From Leisingera sp. S132 (GTDB taxonomy: Bacteria; Pseudomonadota; Alphaproteobacteria; Rhodobacterales; Rhodobacteraceae), in the NCBI RefSeq assembly GCF_025144465.1, contig NZ_CP083553.1:764501-828500 (forward strand): a stretch of DNA of 64,000 nucleotides, in the 5' to 3' direction. A model generated the notes under the pieces. It searched no databases. It saw nothing but the letters and a program-made list of their open reading frames with translations, and had not been told where the DNA came from. The position numbers were made by a program, and so were the translations under genes. Numbering within the stretch: position 1 is the stretch's first letter; each line of letters starts with the position of its first letter. Below are positions 12,533 to 20,501 of this stretch, in pieces.

Positions 12533-12703
12533 ATGCTTTACTGGGCACTTGTCTTCCTGGCCGTTGCAATCATCGCCGGCATCTTCGGATTTAGCGGCAT
12601 TGCTACGGCCTCCGCAGGGATCGCACAGATCCTGTTCTTCATCTTCCTGCTTCTCTTCGCGGCAGCGCTGATCGTCCGGCTGCTTCGCGGCGCTTCCCGC
12701 TGA
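12533..12703 (+). CDS. DUF1328 small membrane protein (second copy)
   Basis: A 56-residue paralogue of the 10913 gene: [20 protein letters not shown], then a [12 protein letters not shown] turn, a second membrane span and a basic tail [16 protein letters not shown] stands 6 bases before ATG 12533. It is transcribed towards dps from its own EcfG-type promoter. The function of the family is not known; a membrane role under stress is inference from the control sites. Confidence 0.88.
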
Positions 12704-12754
12704 CGGCGGCGCGCGGCCAAATGCAGAATGCCTGCATTCTCTTGCCGGCGGGGC

Positions 12755-12779
12755 GGAACAATCCCGCCTCGCCTGCGTT
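12755..12779 (+). promoter_or_regulatory. EcfG-type promoter before dps
   Basis: GGAAC at 12755-12759, 16 bases, then CGTT at 12776-12779: a full match to the EcfG consensus, 41 bp before the dps start. Confidence 0.8.
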
Positions 12780-12819
12780 TATCCATTGTAAGCGACCTGC
12801 AACAGAAAAGGAGTATCCC

Positions 12820-13317
12820 ATGACTGGCGCACTGACCGCCGTACCAAGCCCCGACAAAGTTGAAACCGGTGTCAGGGACACTGGCCCAATCGCTGACGGC
12901 TTGGCGGACGTGCTCGCAGATACGTACCGTCTGGTTTTCAAGACCCACGCTTGCCACTGGAATGTGGAAGGCCCGGCCTTCTTCTCAATGCACAAGCTGA
13001 CCGAAGAGCAATACGAAAACATGTTCTCCGCGGCCGACGACTTGGCAGAACGCATCCGTGCCCTGGGGCATCTGGCGCCATCGCGCATGGACGAAGTGCT
13101 GAACCGCTCCAAGATCGAGGATCCCAGCGGAGAGCTGAGCGCCGGTGAAATGGCGCAGGATCTGGCCGCAAGCCATGAGCGGATTGCTCAGCGCATGCAT
13201 GCGCTGGCAGAACTGGCAGGCCGCCGCCGTGACATCGTGACAGAGGACCTGGCAACGGCTCGCTCTGCCTTTCATGAACAGGCGGCCTGGATGCTGCGCG
13301 CAATCGCCAAGTCGTAA
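12820..13317 (+). CDS. dps: Dps-family DNA-binding ferroxidase
   Basis: A 165-residue four-helix ferritin-like protein that oxidises and stores iron with peroxide and protects DNA. The Dps ferroxidase residues are visible as H in KTHACHWNVEGP, H in FSMHKLTEEQY and D/E in AADDLAERI. ATG 12820 with AAAGGAG upstream is chosen; the longer frame to 12721 covers the promoter. Immediately preceded by a perfect EcfG-type promoter and followed by a strong terminator, so it is a one-gene unit in the stress island. Confidence 0.92.
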   Translation: MTGALTAVPSPDKVETGVRDTGPIADGLADVLADTYRLVFKTHACHWNVEGPAFFSMHKLTEEQYENMFSAADDLAERIRALGHLAPSRMDEVLNRSKIEDPSGELSAGEMAQDLAASHERIAQRMHALAELAGRRRDIVTEDLATARSAFHEQAAWMLRAIAKS

Positions 13318-13459: not shown

Positions 13460-14275
13460 TCAGACTTTCAGCGTTTCCGTGGAAGAAAAGAACATCGCCT
13501 GGCTGACGGCAGAGCGGACTTGCTCTTCCGTGTAGGGTTTGGAAATGAGGAAGGCTGGTTCGGGGCCTTCCCCGGTCAGCAGACGTTCGGGATAGGCAGT
13601 GATAAAAATGACCGGGCGGTCGCCGTGTTTTTCCAGTATGCCGTTCACGGCATCTATGCCGCTGGAATTGTCGGCCAGCTGGATATCCGACAGCACAAGC
13701 TCGGCGGGGGCGCTGGAGGCAAGCTCCATCGCTTGGGCTTCGGTACGGGCGATGCCGGTGACACTGTGGCCCATAGCTGTGACAATCGCTTCCAGGTCCA
13801 TGGCAATAACGGCCTCGTCCTCGATGATCATCACCCGGCCTGCAGTGGCGCGTGACATTTCCTCGTAAGCAATTGAAATCAGTTCGGAAGCCTCGTCTTC
13901 ACTGACCCCCATGATAACACCTGTGCTGGCAGAACTGAATTCCTCTATCGTGTGCAGCAGCAGCGCTTCACGGGTGTTCGGTGTCAGCTGGCGCAGATGC
14001 CTTTGCGCCTTGGCGGCGAGTCCGGTATCGGCTTCATCTTCGCCTGCCGGTGCCCCGGTGGAAGACCAGATTGCGTGGAAGACCCGGAACAGGGCGGCCT
14101 TGGGCGACAGGCTGCTGTCATATTCGGCTTCCCCTGCCAGGATCGCCTCCAGCGCCGCCAGGGCATATTTGTCGCCGCTGCTCTGGCTGCCTGTCAGCGC
14201 ACGCGCATAGCGGCGCAAATAGGGCAGGTTGGCACCAATCTGGCTGGCGATCAGTTCTCCCGATTGAGCGGTCAT
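13460..14275 (-). CDS. phyR: General stress response regulator PhyR
   Basis: A 271-residue protein with an N-terminal sigma-factor-like domain (about residues 1-135, no DNA-binding residues needed) and a C-terminal receiver (from GRVMIIEDEAVIAMDLEAIV). The phospho-acceptor is D in LVLSDIQLADNSSG, and K in FLISKPYTEEQV completes the receiver site. When phosphorylated, PhyR proteins titrate NepR and free EcfG. It is divergent from nepR-ecfG, the standard order in alphaproteobacteria. AAGGAAC before ATG 14275 serves as ribosome site. Confidence 0.95.
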   Translation of the reverse strand: MTAQSGELIASQIGANLPYLRRYARALTGSQSSGDKYALAALEAILAGEAEYDSSLSPKAALFRVFHAIWSSTGAPAGEDEADTGLAAKAQRHLRQLTPNTREALLLHTIEEFSSASTGVIMGVSEDEASELISIAYEEMSRATAGRVMIIEDEAVIAMDLEAIVTAMGHSVTGIARTEAQAMELASSAPAELVLSDIQLADNSSGIDAVNGILEKHGDRPVIFITAYPERLLTGEGPEPAFLISKPYTEEQVRSAVSQAMFFSSTETLKV

Positions 14276-14307: not shown

Positions 14308-14332
14308 GGAACTATACGCACCGCCGCGCGTT
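14308..14332 (+). promoter_or_regulatory. EcfG-type promoter before nepR-ecfG
   Basis: GGAAC at 14308-14312, 16 bases, CGTT at 14329-14332. A perfect match 28 bp before nepR, implying positive autoregulation of the sigma factor. Confidence 0.85.
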
Positions 14333-14359
14333 TGGTTCCAGAAACCGCGCAAAAAATTG

Positions 14360-14563
14360 ATGGATCGCATGACACAGCCACAACGTGCCCGGCCCCGGAA
14401 TGAGCAGGCCGACCGCGAAATCGACGAAAACCTCAAGCGGGCGTTCGAACAGGTCGCCAGCGAACCTGTGCCGGACCGCTTCACTGACCTGCTGAAACAG
14501 CTGAAGGAAAAAGAGACTCTGGGAAAGATGAAGCAGTCAGAGGAGAGTACCTCGAATGACTGA
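14360..14563 (+). CDS. nepR: Anti-sigma factor NepR
   Basis: A 67-residue protein rich in charge, with the NepR core DENLKRAFEQVASEPVPDRF followed by TDLLKQLKE. NepR holds EcfG inactive until phospho-PhyR takes it away. ATG 14360 is used; ATG 14369 is a close alternative and would give 64 residues. The stop overlaps the ecfG start by 8 bp, so the two are translationally coupled. Too short for many gene finders but well supported by motif and position. Confidence 0.9.
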   Translation: MDRMTQPQRARPRNEQADREIDENLKRAFEQVASEPVPDRFTDLLKQLKEKETLGKMKQSEESTSND

Positions 14564-15113
14564 GACACAACCGGATCCCAGGGACGACCTGGTCAACCAT
14601 CTGGGTGCTCTGCGCGCCTTTGCCATCAGCCTGACCCGCAACAGCGCCACCGCCGACGACCTGGTGCAGGATACGCTCGTCAAGGCCTGGACCAACATCG
14701 AGAAATTCGAAGCGGGTTCGAATATGCGCGCCTGGCTTTTCACTATCCTGCGCAACACCTTTTACTCGCTGCGCCGCAAGCGCAAGCGCGAGGTCGAGGA
14801 TGCCGACGGGGCACTGTCCGGCAGCCTGGCGCAAAAACCGGATCACGACGGACGGCTTCACATGCGCGACTTTCATGTGGCTTTTGCTCAGCTCAACGAT
14901 GAGCAGCGCGAAGCGCTGGTGCTGGTCGGCGCAGGCGGGTTTTCCTACGATGAGGCCGCCGGAATGTGCGGCGTCAAAACCGGCACCATCAAAAGCCGTG
15001 TCAATCGCGCCCGTGCCCGTCTGGCTGAGCTGATGGATCTGGACGAAGACGGTCAGATTGAGCTGACCGACACCGTGACAGCCGGAATTGTCGCGCAGCA
15101 GAGCGCCGCATGA
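14556..15113 (+). CDS. ecfG: ECF sigma factor EcfG
   Basis: A 185-residue ECF sigma factor (ECF15 type). Region 2 is ATADDLVQDTLVKAWTNIEKF with MRAWLFTILRN, and region 4 is LVGAGGFSYDEAAGMCGVK with KSRVNRARARL. It directs the general stress regulon from GGAAC-N16/17-CGTT promoters, of which several are present within 6 kb. It overlaps nepR upstream by 8 bp and the histidine kinase downstream by 4 bp (ATGA). Confidence 0.95.
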   Translation: MTETQPDPRDDLVNHLGALRAFAISLTRNSATADDLVQDTLVKAWTNIEKFEAGSNMRAWLFTILRNTFYSLRRKRKREVEDADGALSGSLAQKPDHDGRLHMRDFHVAFAQLNDEQREALVLVGAGGFSYDEAAGMCGVKTGTIKSRVNRARARLAELMDLDEDGQIELTDTVTAGIVAQQSAA

Positions 15114-16882
15114 TTTCAATGCCGCGGTTGCAGGCAGGGGGGCTTCTGGTCCGGCTCGCAGCGCTGATGACGTTTGCGCTGCTGCCGCTGGGCATGATCG
15201 CGCTCTATCAGACTTATGCTGTTGTCGATGAGGCCACCCGGCTGTCGCATGCATCGCTGCTTGACCGGACCGAACGGGCGGCATCCAAGGAACGCGAACT
15301 ATTGCAGCGCGCTGGCGGCGCTACAGAAGGGGTCGCGGCGGCCATACTTCCCGTTCTGGACGACCGCCGCGCCTGCAGCAGTCTTCTGCAGGCTTTCACG
15401 GACGGCCCGAACCCGTTCACCTTCGCGGCTTTCATCACACCGGATGGCCGGATGATTTGCGCATCTGATGGTAAGGCTCGGGACGTGTCTGACCGGTGGA
15501 TGTACTTGAAGGCCCGCCAGACGTCGCAGTTGTCCTTTGCTTTGGGCCGCGATCTTTTGGGGGAAGGCGGCTCGTTCCTGCTGGCCACCAGCCCGGTGCA
15601 GCGCGACGGTATATTGCTGGGATATGTGTCCATAGCCATCCCGCACAAGGTCGCCGCAGCAGATTTCGGAAACAACTGGTCCGACCGGGGCATCCAGTAC
15701 GTGACAATCGACGCGCAGGGCGAAATCCTTTCCTCCAGCGTGCCGGAAGAGGACGCGGCGCAAGTGCTGCCCGTTTCGGTGCCGCGGCGGGATCTGCTGG
15801 CGCACACCGGGGAGACCTTTTTTGAGGATGACCGTTCGGGCAGCGAACGGTTCTTTGCTGTGAGTGAAATTCTTCCCGGGCAGGTTTCGGTGGTCGGCAG
15901 CTGGCCGGTGGAAAACGCCATGACCGCGGCCAGAAACCCGGCCTCCCTGATGACGATCGCGTTTCCGGTGTTGATGTGGCTTGCAGGGATTTCCGTGGCG
16001 GTTCTTGGCCTGCAGCAGATGGTTATCCGCCACCTCAGCGCGCTGCGCCGGGCCATGCGCCGTTATGCGCTGGGGGAACGTGAGGACCCCAGGCTCGAAC
16101 TTCACAACCCGCCGCGCGAGTTCGAGGAAGCGGAGCAGTCCTTCAACAGGATGGTTGCCATCCTGAGCGAGGCAGAACGGCGGCGCGAGCTGGACCTGGA
16201 AGAAAAGACAATCCTGCTGCGCGAGGTGCACCACCGGGTCAAGAACAACCTCCAGCTAGTTGCCTCGATCATGAACATGCAGGGCCGAACGGCACAGACG
16301 CCCGAGGCCCGCCGCATGCTGTCGCAATTGCAGCGCCGGGTGCGGGGGCTGGCCACCATTCACCGCAGCCTGAACACCAACCCGGATATCACAACTGTTG
16401 ACAGCCGCGACCTGATCCAGGAGCTGATCTCGGAAATCGGATCGATGAACGCCGGAACCGGGCAGGAGATCGTGATCGAAACCGACCTCGCGCCTGTTCC
16501 GCTGACCCAGGATCAGGGTGTCACGCTCTCGATGCTGGTGTCGGAGGCGATGACCAACGCAGTCAAATACCTGGGTGTGCCTGACGGCGGACGCCCTCGG
16601 ATTGATGTCCGTCTGCTAGAAACAGCGCCGGACTGGCTGGAGCTTGAAATCACCAACACCAAGGGGCAGCCGCTGGCGGCAGAGGATGAAGTCCTTCAGG
16701 GAACCGGCATTGGCGCACGGCTGATGATGGCTTTTGCGGCACAGCTTGACGGCACCGTGAGTACCGGCGAGACAGAGACGGCTTACACCTACCGGCTGGG
16801 CTTTCCCGTTGCCGCCGGTGCAGTTCCGCCAGCCGCAAGGGACACAGAACAGGATCATGACGCAGAAGAACCCGCAGCATGA
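15110..16882 (+). CDS. Sensor histidine kinase, HisKA_2/HWE-type, candidate PhyK
   Basis: A 590-residue membrane kinase. A membrane segment near residues 10-35 leads into a periplasmic Cache-like region (about 40-275) containing FAAFITPDGRMICASDG and YVTIDAQGEIL. A second span lies near 282-305, then a HAMP linker and the dimerisation helix LREVHHRVKNNLQLV (phospho-His near residue 374). The ATPase domain has SEAMTNAVKY as N box. HisKA_2 kinases are the usual activators of PhyR, and the ATGA overlap with ecfG makes this the likely stress kinase. The signal sensed is unknown. Confidence 0.88.
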   Translation: MISMPRLQAGGLLVRLAALMTFALLPLGMIALYQTYAVVDEATRLSHASLLDRTERAASKERELLQRAGGATEGVAAAILPVLDDRRACSSLLQAFTDGPNPFTFAAFITPDGRMICASDGKARDVSDRWMYLKARQTSQLSFALGRDLLGEGGSFLLATSPVQRDGILLGYVSIAIPHKVAAADFGNNWSDRGIQYVTIDAQGEILSSSVPEEDAAQVLPVSVPRRDLLAHTGETFFEDDRSGSERFFAVSEILPGQVSVVGSWPVENAMTAARNPASLMTIAFPVLMWLAGISVAVLGLQQMVIRHLSALRRAMRRYALGEREDPRLELHNPPREFEEAEQSFNRMVAILSEAERRRELDLEEKTILLREVHHRVKNNLQLVASIMNMQGRTAQTPEARRMLSQLQRRVRGLATIHRSLNTNPDITTVDSRDLIQELISEIGSMNAGTGQEIVIETDLAPVPLTQDQGVTLSMLVSEAMTNAVKYLGVPDGGRPRIDVRLLETAPDWLELEITNTKGQPLAAEDEVLQGTGIGARLMMAFAAQLDGTVSTGETETAYTYRLGFPVAAGAVPPAARDTEQDHDAEEPAA

Positions 16883-18344
16883 TGACGTCCGCTGCCCGGA
16901 CTTTTCAGTTCTGGTCACCGCTGAACAGGCCTGGCCGGCTTTTGAGCGTGCGGTGCTGGAGGCCAAGAATGAAATCAGCGCGAGCTTCCGGCTGTTCGAT
17001 TTCGCCACCAAGCTGTTGAGCCCGGACGCGAAGAAGACAGGGGAAACCTGGGCAGAACTGATCGCGGATGCCCTGCGCCGCGGCGTGCGCGTCCGCCTGG
17101 TGGTGAGCGATTTTGACCCGGTGATGGCGGCCCCGTTGCACGCGGCTGCGCAAAACACGCTTGCCCAGGCCAGGGAGATTGCCAGCGGGCTTGCGCCGGA
17201 AACGGCTGCGCGTCTGTCGGTGACCGCGGCGCTGCATCCGGCACGGGCCGGCTTGCTGCCGCGGCTGGCATTTTCACCTTTTGTGATCCGTAAGCTTCGC
17301 AAGCTGCCGCGGCGGCTCAGGCCCTCCGCCGCGAACCGCGGTCTGCCGCAGCTCTATCCTGTTTCTCATCACCAAAAGATTGCGGTGATCGACCGTCAGG
17401 TTCTCTACATCGGCGGGCTGGATCAGAACCACCGCCGGTACGACACCACCGCCCACGACCAGCCCGCGTTCAAGACATGGGCGGATGTGCAATTGCTGCT
17501 GCGCGGTCCCGAAGCAGAGGAAGCCGCGGATCATCTCGACAGCTTTCTGGAGGACATAGCCGGGCGCAGGCCGCCGCCTGCCCGCAAGCACATCCGTCGC
17601 ACCTTGTCGGTTCCGCGCCAAGCGGGCTTTTGGGCGCTGTCGCCAAAGACGGTTCTTCGCGAAATCGAAGAAGACCACCTGGCCGCATTTGCCGCTGCCC
17701 GCAGCCTTATTTATCTGGAGACCCAGTTTCTGCGCTCCAGCGTCATTGCACGCGGGCTGGCAGATGCGGCCCGCCGCAACCCAGATCTATCGCTGATCCT
17801 TATTCTTCCCGGCTTGCCGGAAGATGTTGCCTTTGACGGGAACCAGGAACTTGATGCCCGCTATGGCATGGCTCTGCAGGCTGAGGCGCTTGAGACCGTG
17901 AGTTCCGCTTTTGGATCCCGCGCCTGTATCGCCAGCCCGGTGCAGCGCCGGATGGCTGCGCGGGACGCGCCCTCGACCCTGGCAGGCTCGCCGCTGGTCT
18001 ATGTGCACAGCAAGGCGCTCATAGCCGACCGGGATTTTGCTCTGGTGGGGTCGGCCAATCTCAACGGGCGCTCTATGCGCTGGGATACCGAGGCCGCATT
18101 GCGGATCACCCGGCAAGACCGGATCGGTCAGCTCTGGCACACGCTGGCCCGGCACTGGTGGCAGGAAGACCTGCCGGAGCAGGCATTGGATCCGGCCAGC
18201 GCTGCCGCCTGGTGGCAGCAGGAAATCCGCCGCAACCAGGTGCGCCGCCCCGAGGCCCGGCGCGGGCTGCTGGTGCCGCATGACCCGGACAGGATGGCGG
18301 AACTGCAGCAGCCCTTGCCAGGTGCTACCGAAGACATTGTCTGA
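16857..18344 (+). CDS. Phospholipase D-like protein with two HKD motifs
   Basis: A 495-residue PLD-superfamily enzyme. The first HKD is HHQKIAVIDRQVLYIGGLD (about residues 172-190), the second HSKALIADRDFALVGSANLN (about 387-406). It has no signal peptide and no N-terminal membrane segments, so it is not a typical cardiolipin synthase; a cytosolic or peripheral phospholipase or phosphatidyltransferase is possible. It overlaps the histidine kinase gene by 26 bp and ends at a strong terminator, so it belongs to the nepR-ecfG-kinase transcript. Confidence 0.88.
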   Translation: MTQKNPQHDDVRCPDFSVLVTAEQAWPAFERAVLEAKNEISASFRLFDFATKLLSPDAKKTGETWAELIADALRRGVRVRLVVSDFDPVMAAPLHAAAQNTLAQAREIASGLAPETAARLSVTAALHPARAGLLPRLAFSPFVIRKLRKLPRRLRPSAANRGLPQLYPVSHHQKIAVIDRQVLYIGGLDQNHRRYDTTAHDQPAFKTWADVQLLLRGPEAEEAADHLDSFLEDIAGRRPPPARKHIRRTLSVPRQAGFWALSPKTVLREIEEDHLAAFAAARSLIYLETQFLRSSVIARGLADAARRNPDLSLILILPGLPEDVAFDGNQELDARYGMALQAEALETVSSAFGSRACIASPVQRRMAARDAPSTLAGSPLVYVHSKALIADRDFALVGSANLNGRSMRWDTEAALRITRQDRIGQLWHTLARHWWQEDLPEQALDPASAAAWWQQEIRRNQVRRPEARRGLLVPHDPDRMAELQQPLPGATEDIV

Positions 18345-18406: not shown

Positions 18407-18438
18407 AAAGGCCCGGTGCAGCACTGCACCGGGCCTTT
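18407..18438. terminator. Bidirectional intrinsic terminator
   Basis: A perfect 14-bp stem with arms AAAGGCCCGGTGCA and TGCACCGGGCCTTT and a GCAC loop, between the PLD gene and the convergent lipoprotein gene. Confidence 0.92.
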
Positions 18439-18462: not shown

Positions 18463-18588
18463 TTATTGAGCTTCCTGCGATTCCTCGGTGATTTCATTGC
18501 CAAGGTTCGATACATCCCTGCCGAAGCCTTCTGCGGTCTCGCAGGCCGCCAGGCCTGCCAGTGCCAGCAAAGCTATCATGATACGCAT
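18463..18588 (-). CDS. Entericidin-like small lipoprotein
   Basis: A 41-residue precursor: MRIMIALLALAGLAACETAEG is a lipoprotein signal with the lipobox LAAC, and the mature part is about 26 residues, ending in an acidic tail (EITEESQEAQ). This matches the entericidin A/B family, in which small lipoproteins are made under stress or in stationary phase. It starts 10 bp after the stop of the exported-protein gene upstream, and probably shares that gene's EcfG-type promoter. Confidence 0.8.
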   Translation of the reverse strand: MRIMIALLALAGLAACETAEGFGRDVSNLGNEITEESQEAQ

Positions 18589-18598
18589 GCCGGCCTCC

Positions 18599-19087
18599 TT
18601 ATTGCAGTTTCGAGGCCACATTGCCTGCGAAGGCATCAATGACGGCATTGTAGAACAGGTCGCTGTCAACGGTCACGGCTGCGGGATCGATGCCTTCGGG
18701 GTAGTAGGCGTTCAGCTGGTCCGCGGACACGGTCAGGTCATAGCGCATATCTTTGGAGGCATCGGCCATATCGATATCCACATCGCCCTTCAGGACCCAT
18801 TCGCCGACACCCAGCGCCTGCTCGAAATTGCTGGCCAGTGCCACCGAGTCGATCTCCACATGGATCTCTGCCGCGTCCTCGGCACCGGCTTCGGCGATCT
18901 GGCCTACCAGCTTCTCTGCGAGGGCGGTTTCCAGATCGGTTTCGAGGCTGGTCCAGACTTTTGCTGCCGGATGGTTCTCAATCGCACTCAGATCGGCGGT
19001 CACGTCGATTTCGGACACCATGGACCCAGCGGTAGCTGCGGTGGCCATAGCTGCAACAAGAGCGGTGGTGCGGAGCAGATGTTTCAT
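18599..19087 (-). CDS. Exported protein of unknown function
   Basis: A 162-residue protein with a clear signal peptide (MKHLLRTTALVAAMATAATAG) and an acidic mature domain of about 140 residues containing VHVEIDS-like alternating strands (IHVEIDSVALASNF, LKGDVDIDM). I do not recognise the family. ATG 19087 is chosen because the longer frame to 19198 covers the promoter and AAGGAA lies just upstream. It leads a two-gene unit with the entericidin-like lipoprotein, under an EcfG-type promoter, so an envelope stress role is inferred. Confidence 0.8.
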   Translation of the reverse strand: MKHLLRTTALVAAMATAATAGSMVSEIDVTADLSAIENHPAAKVWTSLETDLETALAEKLVGQIAEAGAEDAAEIHVEIDSVALASNFEQALGVGEWVLKGDVDIDMADASKDMRYDLTVSADQLNAYYPEGIDPAAVTVDSDLFYNAVIDAFAGNVASKLQ

Positions 19088-19135
19088 CGTCGGTATTCCT
19101 TTCCAATTGTGTCCCTCTTGGGGATGCACCGACAG

Positions 19136-19161
19136 AACGCACCGGCCAGAAGAAAGGTTCC
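19136..19161 (-). promoter_or_regulatory. EcfG-type promoter before the exported-protein/lipoprotein unit
   Basis: On the minus strand GGAAC (19161-19157), 17 bases, CGTT (19139-19136), 49 bp before the start at 19087. Confidence 0.7.
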
Positions 19162-19227
19162 TGCAAAAATCCTGAAGGCCCGCTGAATGTACATGCATCG
19201 GCGGATTCTTGCGGAAATCAGGCGCTT

Positions 19228-19252
19228 GGAACTACAGACCGGCAGTCGCGTT
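19228..19252 (+). promoter_or_regulatory. EcfG-type promoter before the ExoD-like gene
   Basis: GGAAC at 19228-19232, 16 bases, CGTT at 19249-19252. Perfect consensus, 39 bp before the start. Confidence 0.8.
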
Positions 19253-19290
19253 GCCTTTCTAAACCGGAACCGCCAGAGGAAGGGGGCAAA

Positions 19291-19878
19291 ATGACTTCAG
19301 CGAACCAGCCTGTTGAACATGTGCTGAAGGAAACCAGCAGTCTTGCGCGCAGAAACCGCGGCGGCATCACCGTCCGCCGGTTTGCAGAGGAACTGGGGCA
19401 GAGTTCGCTTCCGGCGGTTCTGGCAGTCCCGGCCATGGCTGTGGTCACACCACTCAGCGGGGTGCCGCTGTTTTCCTCTGCCTGCGGTGCGCTGATCTGC
19501 CTGATCTCGGCTCAAATGCTGATGGGGCGGCAGCACCTGTGGATCCCCGGCTGGCTGGGCCGCCGCAGGATTAAGGCTGATACCGTGCGCAAGGGGGCGG
19601 CGGCGTTACGCGGGAGCGTGCGATGGATGGACCGTCATTCGGGCAAGCGGCTGGCATTGTTGACCCGCCAGCCCTTTCTTACGGTCATCCAGGCCGTGTG
19701 CCTGATCTGCGGCGCTCTGATGCCCCTGCTGGAAATTGTCCCGTTTTCCTCGTCGGTGCTGGGCGGCATTGTCAGCCTCCTGGCCGTGGCCATGCTGACC
19801 CGCGACGGGCTGATCGTCTTGCTCACACTGTCCGCGCTCTTTACCGCTGCTGCTTCGTTCGCGGCGGGGCTTGTTTGA
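19291..19878 (+). CDS. ExoD-like membrane protein
   Basis: A 195-residue membrane protein. After a soluble start (RRNRGGITVRRFAEELGQSS) come about four membrane segments, including LPAVLAVPAMAVVTPLSG, VPLFSSACGALICLISAQ, LEIVPFSSSVLGGIVSLLAV and a final LIVLLTLSALFTAAASF span. This is the layout of the ExoD family, first tied to exopolysaccharide output and alkali tolerance in rhizobia; the biochemical role is not known. AAGGGGG precedes ATG 19291. It has its own perfect EcfG-type promoter and a strong terminator. Confidence 0.78.
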   Translation: MTSANQPVEHVLKETSSLARRNRGGITVRRFAEELGQSSLPAVLAVPAMAVVTPLSGVPLFSSACGALICLISAQMLMGRQHLWIPGWLGRRRIKADTVRKGAAALRGSVRWMDRHSGKRLALLTRQPFLTVIQAVCLICGALMPLLEIVPFSSSVLGGIVSLLAVAMLTRDGLIVLLTLSALFTAAASFAAGLV

Positions 19879-19905
19879 TTGCCATGCGCTGCAGCCGAGC
19901 ACCAA

Positions 19906-19935
19906 AAGACCGGGTTCCTTTCGGAACCCGGTCTT
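19906..19935. terminator. Intrinsic terminator after the ExoD-like gene
   Basis: A perfect 13-bp stem (AAGACCGGGTTCC and complement) around a TTTC loop. The T tract is short, so efficiency is uncertain. Confidence 0.8.
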
Positions 19936-20054
19936 GCAGGCCGCTTGGAAGTGACATTCCCCGGGACACTGGTACGAGGCAGGAAACCGGAACCAGGGAA
20001 GACAAACAAACGGCGGTGATCATGGCGGCCAGAAGGCCGCCATGAATTCGGATC

Positions 20055-20501
20055 TTATCCGGGCTGGTAGTCCGGCAGGGCTTCCAGTTGCTCGCGTGTC
20101 AGATGGGTTAAGATACGCACGTCGGTTTCGGCCTGCACGATCTCGATATCCCCCATCGACAGCTCGACCGGCTTTTCACCGAAGCCCAGAAAGCCGCCCA
20201 CATCGATGATGACGGCTTCGACGCCGCCACTGGTGTTCACCACGACCTGCGAGAGCTCGCCAATATGCTCGTCCTCGGCGTCATAGGCTGGAGCTCCGGT
20301 CAATTCTGATGCAGTAACCTCATTCATGCCCAGTGGCTCCATCGCAGGCCCGTCTGCGTCGGGGATCAGGGCCGATAGGCCGCCCTCTGAAGCCGTGCCG
20401 CCGCTGAGTGGGCCGCTTGCGGAAATGCTGCCGTCCGTGCCGCCAGCCACAGGGGCCGCCGCGGCGATGATCAGCGAAGCCGAAAGCGTAAGATGTTTCA
20501 T
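20055..20501 (-). CDS. Exported PRC-barrel domain protein
   Basis: A 148-residue protein with a signal peptide (MKHLTLSASLIIAAAAPVAGG), a Gly/Ser-rich linker to about residue 60, then a PRC-barrel-like domain (ELTGAPAYDAEDEHIGELSQVV, VEAVIIDVGGFLGFGEKPVEL) and a C-terminal LTREQLEALPDYQP. PRC-barrel exported proteins are frequent in stress regulons; the ligand is unknown. It sits at the edge of the stress island behind an EcfG-type promoter match. Confidence 0.82.
   Translation of the reverse strand: MKHLTLSASLIIAAAAPVAGGTDGSISASGPLSGGTASEGGLSALIPDADGPAMEPLGMNEVTASELTGAPAYDAEDEHIGELSQVVVNTSGGVEAVIIDVGGFLGFGEKPVELSMGDIEIVQAETDVRILTHLTREQLEALPDYQPG

Follow-up and report, generated by a model that had tools for sequence, protein, structure and literature searches.

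A phospholipase D-like gene linked to the EcfG general stress locus of Rhodobacteraceae, next to a PhyK-type sensor with an altered ATP-binding box

Why would a gene for a phospholipase D-like protein (PLD) stand, together with one for a sensor histidine kinase (HK), directly behind the gene of a stress sigma factor? The question is raised by a 64-kb stretch of DNA (the window) from the 4.69-Mb genome of Leisingera sp. S132, a member of the Rhodobacteraceae. The window contains the components of a general stress module, namely PhyR, NepR and an EcfG-type sigma factor, with phyR divergent from nepR-ecfG, and HK and PLD follow ecfG on the same strand (coordinates in Table 1). The partner switch, its promoter and the presence of a sensor gene near ecfG are already known (PMC8103513). 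Based on sequence and structural models, we propose that this is a Rhodobacteraceae general stress locus with two added functions, a PhyK-type sensor branch and an EcfG-driven PLD acting on phospholipids, a reading that we consider rather likely to be right.

The nepR, ecfG, HK and PLD genes overlap in series by 8 bp, 4 bp (ATGA) and 26 bp (PLD starting with ATG), exactly as given in a preliminary description of this DNA, and from these overlaps we infer a single nepR-ecfG-HK-PLD transcript. The arrangement extends beyond this genome: the linkage of PLD to EcfG recurs in several forms, with HK separating the two genes, with HK missing, or with PLD displaced by a few kilobases and often provided with an EcfG-type promoter of its own.

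To measure this linkage, we surveyed 149 Rhodobacteraceae genomes, one per genus. A PLD ortholog occurs in 41 of them and EcfG in 66, and 37 have both (Fisher p = 1.1e-12). PLD lies at most 15 kb from ecfG in 30 of these 37 genomes; in 23 genomes it is downstream of ecfG, on the same strand and within 2.5 kb, mostly with HK between the two. A class-wide search for PLD beyond the Rhodobacteraceae returned two matches in other families. Among 80 named loci, those nearest by PLD belong to Leisingera (at most 95% identity), and phyR-nepR-ecfG is found within the fetched stretch at 67. About 50 of the 80 have HK-PLD, 11 have ecfG-PLD without HK (Marivita and relatives, with phyR/nepR-ecfG-PLD and no kinase gene), and in 19 PLD stands apart. 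Some of the separated PLD genes sit upstream of the cluster, as in Roseovarius; Mameliella has HK-PLD several kilobases away from phyR-nepR-ecfG; and two genomes of Cognatishimia carry phyR on the contig of HK-PLD, about 10 kb away and just beyond the fetched stretch. One record (L040) is titled Nocardioides marinus, a label that is evidently wrong, its locus being about 80% identical to that of Leisingera.

General synteny was rejected as the cause of this association, since other neighbors are kept far less than ecfG and HK: at 70 non-Leisingera loci, ecfG is retained at 57 and HK at 47, versus 19 for the dps-like gene, 14 for the PRC-barrel gene and 4 for exoD. It could be argued that PLD, HK and ecfG are neighbors by descent only, without a common function, as all members come from the Rhodobacteraceae or near relatives, so that gene order is partly inherited. 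We regard this as extremely unlikely, because the link survives rearrangement (ecfG-PLD without HK, HK-PLD kilobases away, PLD upstream) while other neighbors vanish, and because the separated PLD genes often have an EcfG promoter. Indeed, a perfect GGAAC-N16-17-CGTT site lies within 350 bp upstream of 14 of 32 PLD genes standing apart, where shuffled sequences lead one to expect 0.095, and when the gap between HK and PLD is at least 60 bp, it contains such a site at five of nine loci. Co-occurrence, proximity, persistence through rearrangement and promoters thus agree in indicating that the link between PLD and EcfG is selected and not accidental, and the control of PLD by EcfG appears well supported at the sequence level. 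The earlier suggestion that PLD is induced together with the sigma factor is borne out to this extent, the tie to EcfG being far beyond chance in the survey.

Several observations weigh against so firm a link. Four genera in the survey have PLD and no detectable EcfG, and a perfect EcfG site is missing from 18 of the 32 separated PLD genes. A fairer control than shuffling is given by the regions before other long open reading frames in the same stress loci, of which 126 of 1,228 contain an EcfG site, because these loci are rich in stress genes; relative to them, the enrichment at PLD is about fourfold, much below the shuffle-based value. Finally, related genera are not independent draws, and kinship inflates the linkage counts. 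With all this taken into account, the four kinds of evidence still point the same way.

What, then, might the PLD protein do? It carries both HKD motifs (HQKIAVID and HSKALIAD), which are invariant in 27 sequences, as are the individual residues H172, K174, D179, G186, G187, D189, R193, D196, H384, K386, D391, N401, N403 and R405. A scan for hydrophobic segments along its 495 residues found neither a signal peptide nor a membrane segment, in line with the preliminary description of a protein without a signal peptide. The profile search places human PLD1 at the top (3e-27), followed by PLD2, Pseudomonas PldA and plant PLD-alpha, with the Streptomyces PLDs and PLD3 much weaker. The AlphaFold2 model (pLDDT 93.6) matches human PLD2 with a Z score of 32.2 over 405 residues (root mean square deviation, 3.2), spanning residues 14-495 (chain residues 333-933), and both the fold and the additional motifs of the PLD1/PLD2 type are present over the full length. 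The resemblance to the catalytic domain of PLD1/PLD2 and to PldA thus includes both HKD motifs, GGxD...RxD, TWxD and nearly full-length structural matches (Z, 27 to 32). In contrast to these enzymes, to which it is about 20% identical, the PLD of the window has no PX/PH or other regulatory domains and no secretion signal, and it is encoded in a stress-sigma operon. A role as a secreted or type VI-type effector like PldA was rejected given the lack of a hydrophobic N terminus and the linkage to stress genes.

A point against a lipid-acting enzyme is that the fold by itself is compatible with several substrates: at lower scores, the model also matches other members of the two-HKD group, among them nucleases (PLD3/4; Z, 26), phosphatidylserine synthase (Z, 26.8) and folds of the polyphosphate kinase type (Z, 24). 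A phosphodiesterase acting on nucleic acid, for instance when DNA is damaged or RNA is turned over during stress, would fit a cytosolic protein without a membrane segment that shares its fold with the PLD3/PLD4 5' exonucleases, and weak profile matches to DrmC occur in all 27 members and to NucT in two. We consider a nuclease quite improbable, however, since PLD1/2 are ahead both by structure (Z, 32 versus 26, across residues 14-495 including the C terminus) and by profile (3e-27 for PLD1 versus only 5e-3 for PLD3), and since the GGLDxNxRxYD and TWxD motifs are as in PLD1/2. DrmC of the DISARM system was also rejected as a name, its 35.7 bits being far under the cut-off of 133 and the PADLOC match being weak.

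Within the lipid-acting enzymes, PLD could, instead of being a hydrolase, be an additional phosphatidyl-transferase induced by stress, for example a soluble cardiolipin synthase resembling ClsB. PLD-family enzymes often carry out transfer besides hydrolysis, the window protein scores best with ClsB among the NCBIfam models, and 25 of the 27 members match it. This alternative seems to us possible but unlikely: the scores remain far from the cut-offs for ClsB (43.3 bits; cut-off, 281) and for bacterial cardiolipin synthase (TIGR04265; 35.4 bits; cut-off, 290), the nearest solved structures are PLD1/2, and the only other PLDc_2 protein of the genome, encoded elsewhere, has the N-terminal membrane anchor and build of a housekeeping cardiolipin synthase. 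Cardiolipin synthase was therefore rejected as a name for PLD, as was PssA, the CDP-DAG-serine phosphatidyltransferase (PRK09428; 14.2 bits; cut-off, 314). PLD is most likely a hydrolase or transphosphatidylase acting on phospholipids at the inner leaflet, where the substrate is what we infer from motifs, profile and fold.

The second added component, HK, has two hydrophobic segments (about residues 12-30 and 280-301). By structure, its periplasmic domain is predicted to be a double Cache, with a Z score of 18 to the rpHK1S-Z16 kinase sensor and equally good matches to chemoreceptors for amino acids and other ligands; the Cache-like sensor noticed in the preliminary description is thus confirmed in the model, although no Cache model scored in the Pfam scan of HK. 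Against the PhyK equivalog NF051872 of NCBIfam, HK aligns over positions 1-527 of 537 with 187.5 bits, under the cut-off of 750, and it has the wider features of PhyK-type proteins: two transmembrane segments, a Cache-type periplasmic sensor, HisKA_2 with HHRVKNN, and a cysteine pair. In all 47 HK orthologs these cysteines, Cys89 and Cys117, are unchanged, and most other PhyK-type proteins also have them; Caulobacter PhyK is reported to require a periplasmic cysteine for its function (PMC5964349). Moreover, the genome encodes no HisKA_2/HWE protein besides HK. Because of this uniqueness, its PhyK domain plan and the periplasmic cysteines of PhyK, HK very probably acts on PhyR. Unlike Leisingera sp. 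S132, Marivita and other relatives have several HisKA_2/HWE proteins per genome, and in eight searched genomes with ecfG-PLD and no HK, HisKA_2 proteins of similar length are encoded elsewhere.

How HK would act on PhyR is a separate matter. The preliminary description regarded it as the obvious candidate for activating PhyR; the connection with PhyR is very likely, whereas activation by kinase activity competes with two other possibilities, phosphotransfer and phosphatase activity. In the window protein, the N box and G2 are kept, and the G1 box reads ITNTKG instead of DxGxG. The G1 Asp is present in none of the 47 orthologs (N in 38, S in 5, A in 3 and G in 1), compared with 23 of 27 other PhyK-type proteins. 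This change weakens the kinase step and counts against the proposed scheme, and one should not take for granted that HK is an ordinary PhyR kinase. In Caulobacter, PhyK itself works as a phosphotransferase: it receives phosphate from MrrA, does not autophosphorylate and can do without its ATP-site residues, and the Sphingomonas ortholog PhyP has been proposed to be a phosphatase (PMC5964349).

Several features nevertheless speak for an ATP-dependent kinase that phosphorylates PhyR. His375 and the N-box E are invariant, the N-box Asn is kept in 39 of the 47 orthologs and the G2 glycines in most; the G1 position holds a conserved Asn, which does not look like random drift; and with HK as the sole HisKA_2/HWE protein, no other kinase of this class could supply the phosphate. 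The HPK10 kinases, such as AgrC, have an Asn at the G1 position and yet are active, and by analogy the G1 Asn of HK could still bind ATP. Given the universal loss of the G1 Asp, the additional loss of the N-box Asn in 8 of 47 orthologs (Mameliella, Maliponia, Cognatishimia and others) and the precedent of Caulobacter PhyK, we give this alternative slightly less than an even chance. In seven loci of Mameliella, Maliponia and Cognatishimia, where HK-PLD stands apart from ecfG, the N-box Asn is lost and His375 is kept, and the protein looks catalytically dead. A FATGUY partner of the MrrA/SdrG type (single receiver, PFxFATG[GY]) was sought in the genome, and the motif is in none of the 10 short receiver proteins read. 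One short single-receiver protein (L173, G000:C1:3935490-3935822) has PVVYITGS where MrrA/SdrG have PFxFATG[GY] and is a possible diverged partner of the stress switch.

The proposed sequence of events would begin with stress being sensed by the double-Cache domain of the PhyK-type protein, which would alter the phosphorylation of PhyR. The level of phosphorylated PhyR would be set through His375, by ATP-driven kinase activity, phosphotransfer or phosphatase activity, a choice left among the three because of the altered G1 box. Phosphorylated PhyR would remove NepR, and the freed EcfG would transcribe its own operon, so that PLD would rise with the response. PLD would then act in the cytoplasm at the inner leaflet. 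Using two histidines and a phosphatidyl-enzyme intermediate, as PLD1/2 do, it would cleave off the head groups of phospholipids or exchange them, yielding phosphatidic acid or a transphosphatidylation product. As a result, the membrane may be remodeled under stress and head groups recycled. We also speculate, as a long shot, that the circuit is closed: EcfG-induced PLD would change inner-membrane lipids or free head groups, and the double-Cache protein, as a phosphotransferase or phosphatase and not an ATP kinase, would read this change and reset phosphorylated PhyR. If so, the lipid state would be both the output and the feedback signal of the stress response.

The PhyR-NepR-EcfG systems of Caulobacter, Sphingomonas and Methylobacterium share with this locus the three regulators, the divergent phyR, the EcfG-type promoters and the nearby sensor gene (PMC8103513); the window adds a PLD-like effector gene in, or tied to, the operon. 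HK resembles Caulobacter PhyK and Sphingomonas PhyP in its HisKA_2 domain, its periplasmic sensor with a cysteine pair and its nearly full-length alignment, and differs from them in its sub-cut-off score, in the replacement of the G1 Asp by Asn, in being encoded directly behind ecfG and in being the only protein of its class in the genome. The general stress response loci of Rubellimicrobium thermophilum, also of the Rhodobacteraceae, include PhyR, EcfG and a separate HWE-family kinase, with the same promoter consensus, and the text describing them mentions no PLD gene (PMC12148442); in Rubellimicrobium arenae, HK-PLD lies behind ecfG. PlcP of marine bacteria is reminiscent of the role proposed for PLD, being a phospholipase of the cytoplasm with which membranes are remodeled during stress, but belongs to another enzyme class and responds to another trigger, phosphorus limitation (cited in PMC8319176). 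The preliminary description presented the link between PLD and the stress switch as one not known to have been described, and we found no paper in the open-licence literature linking PLD to EcfG/NepR/PhyR/ECF15.

Table 1. Features of the general stress locus in the window (positions counted from the first nucleotide of the 64-kb stretch)
Feature	Position	Strand	Evidence
phyR, anti-anti-sigma response regulator (sigma-like and receiver domains)	13460..14275	-	Pfam PhyR_sigma2, PhyR_sigma-like, Response_reg; NCBIfam PhyR family, 344 bits (cut-off, 240)
EcfG-type promoter before nepR, GGAAC-N16-CGTT	14308..14332	+	Perfect site upstream of nepR in 48/67 related loci
EcfG-type promoter facing phyR, GGAAC-N16-CGTA, overlapping the nepR promoter	14315..14339	-	Overlap on both strands in 42/67 related loci
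nepR, anti-sigma factor	14360..14563	+	Pfam NepR, 59.6 bits
ecfG, general stress sigma factor	14556..15113	+	Pfam sigma-70 r2 and r4_2; NCBIfam PRK12546, 314 bits (cut-off, 270)
HK, PhyK-type membrane sensor: transmembrane segment, double-Cache periplasmic domain (Cys89/Cys117 invariant), transmembrane segment, weak HAMP, HisKA_2 (His375), HATPase_c with altered G1 box (ITNTKG versus DxGxG)	15110..16882	+	Pfam, NCBIfam, structure, ortholog alignment
PLD, predicted 495-aa cytosolic two-HKD phospholipase D of PLD1/PLD2 type (H172/K174/D179, H384/K386/D391)	16857..18344	+	Two PLDc_2 stretches in Pfam, motifs, fold
14-bp hairpin 3' of PLD, between convergent genes; probable bidirectional terminator	18407..18438		-28.2 kcal/mol, z -4.5; weak T-run on + strand

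The phyR and nepR promoters form one 32-bp element, on opposite strands and offset by 7 bp, so that only one polymerase would be bound at a time. Further EcfG-type sites lie at 12755, before a ferritin/Dps-like gene, and at 19.1-19.3 kb, before a minus-strand gene and the ExoD gene. The count of four sites in the window is not significant in itself (shuffle mean, 1.4; 8 of 100 shuffles reach four); they are nevertheless clustered around ecfG, no more than 7 kb apart. At the other end of the operon, the common terminator assumed in the preliminary description was its weakest part. A very stable hairpin does lie behind PLD, but the plus strand has only three T after it, which are still part of the stem, and it was not called in the terminator scan of the window. 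Since the T-run favors the convergent minus-strand genes, the hairpin is at best a bidirectional terminator. The neighboring genes (12533-13317 and 18466-20501), coding for DUF1328, ferritin/Dps-like, entericidin-like, ExoD and PRC-barrel proteins, have the look of a stress island, and three transcription units among them have a perfect EcfG-type site upstream.

What is new here is a branch of the general stress response that recurs across the lineage and probably ends in a lipid enzyme, together with an altered PhyK-type sensor. Few effectors of this response are known in Alphaproteobacteria, and the known regulons vary by species; a PLD kept with EcfG, or under its promoter, across numerous genera of a major marine family represents one concrete and testable effector, and would connect the stress switch directly with membrane lipids. 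With a sole PhyK-type protein whose ATP box is altered, in a genome that has no other HisKA_2/HWE protein, the question of kinase versus phosphotransferase or phosphatase becomes directly testable. Together, our analysis suggests that in marine Rhodobacteraceae the remodeling of membrane lipids may be a built-in output of the general stress response.

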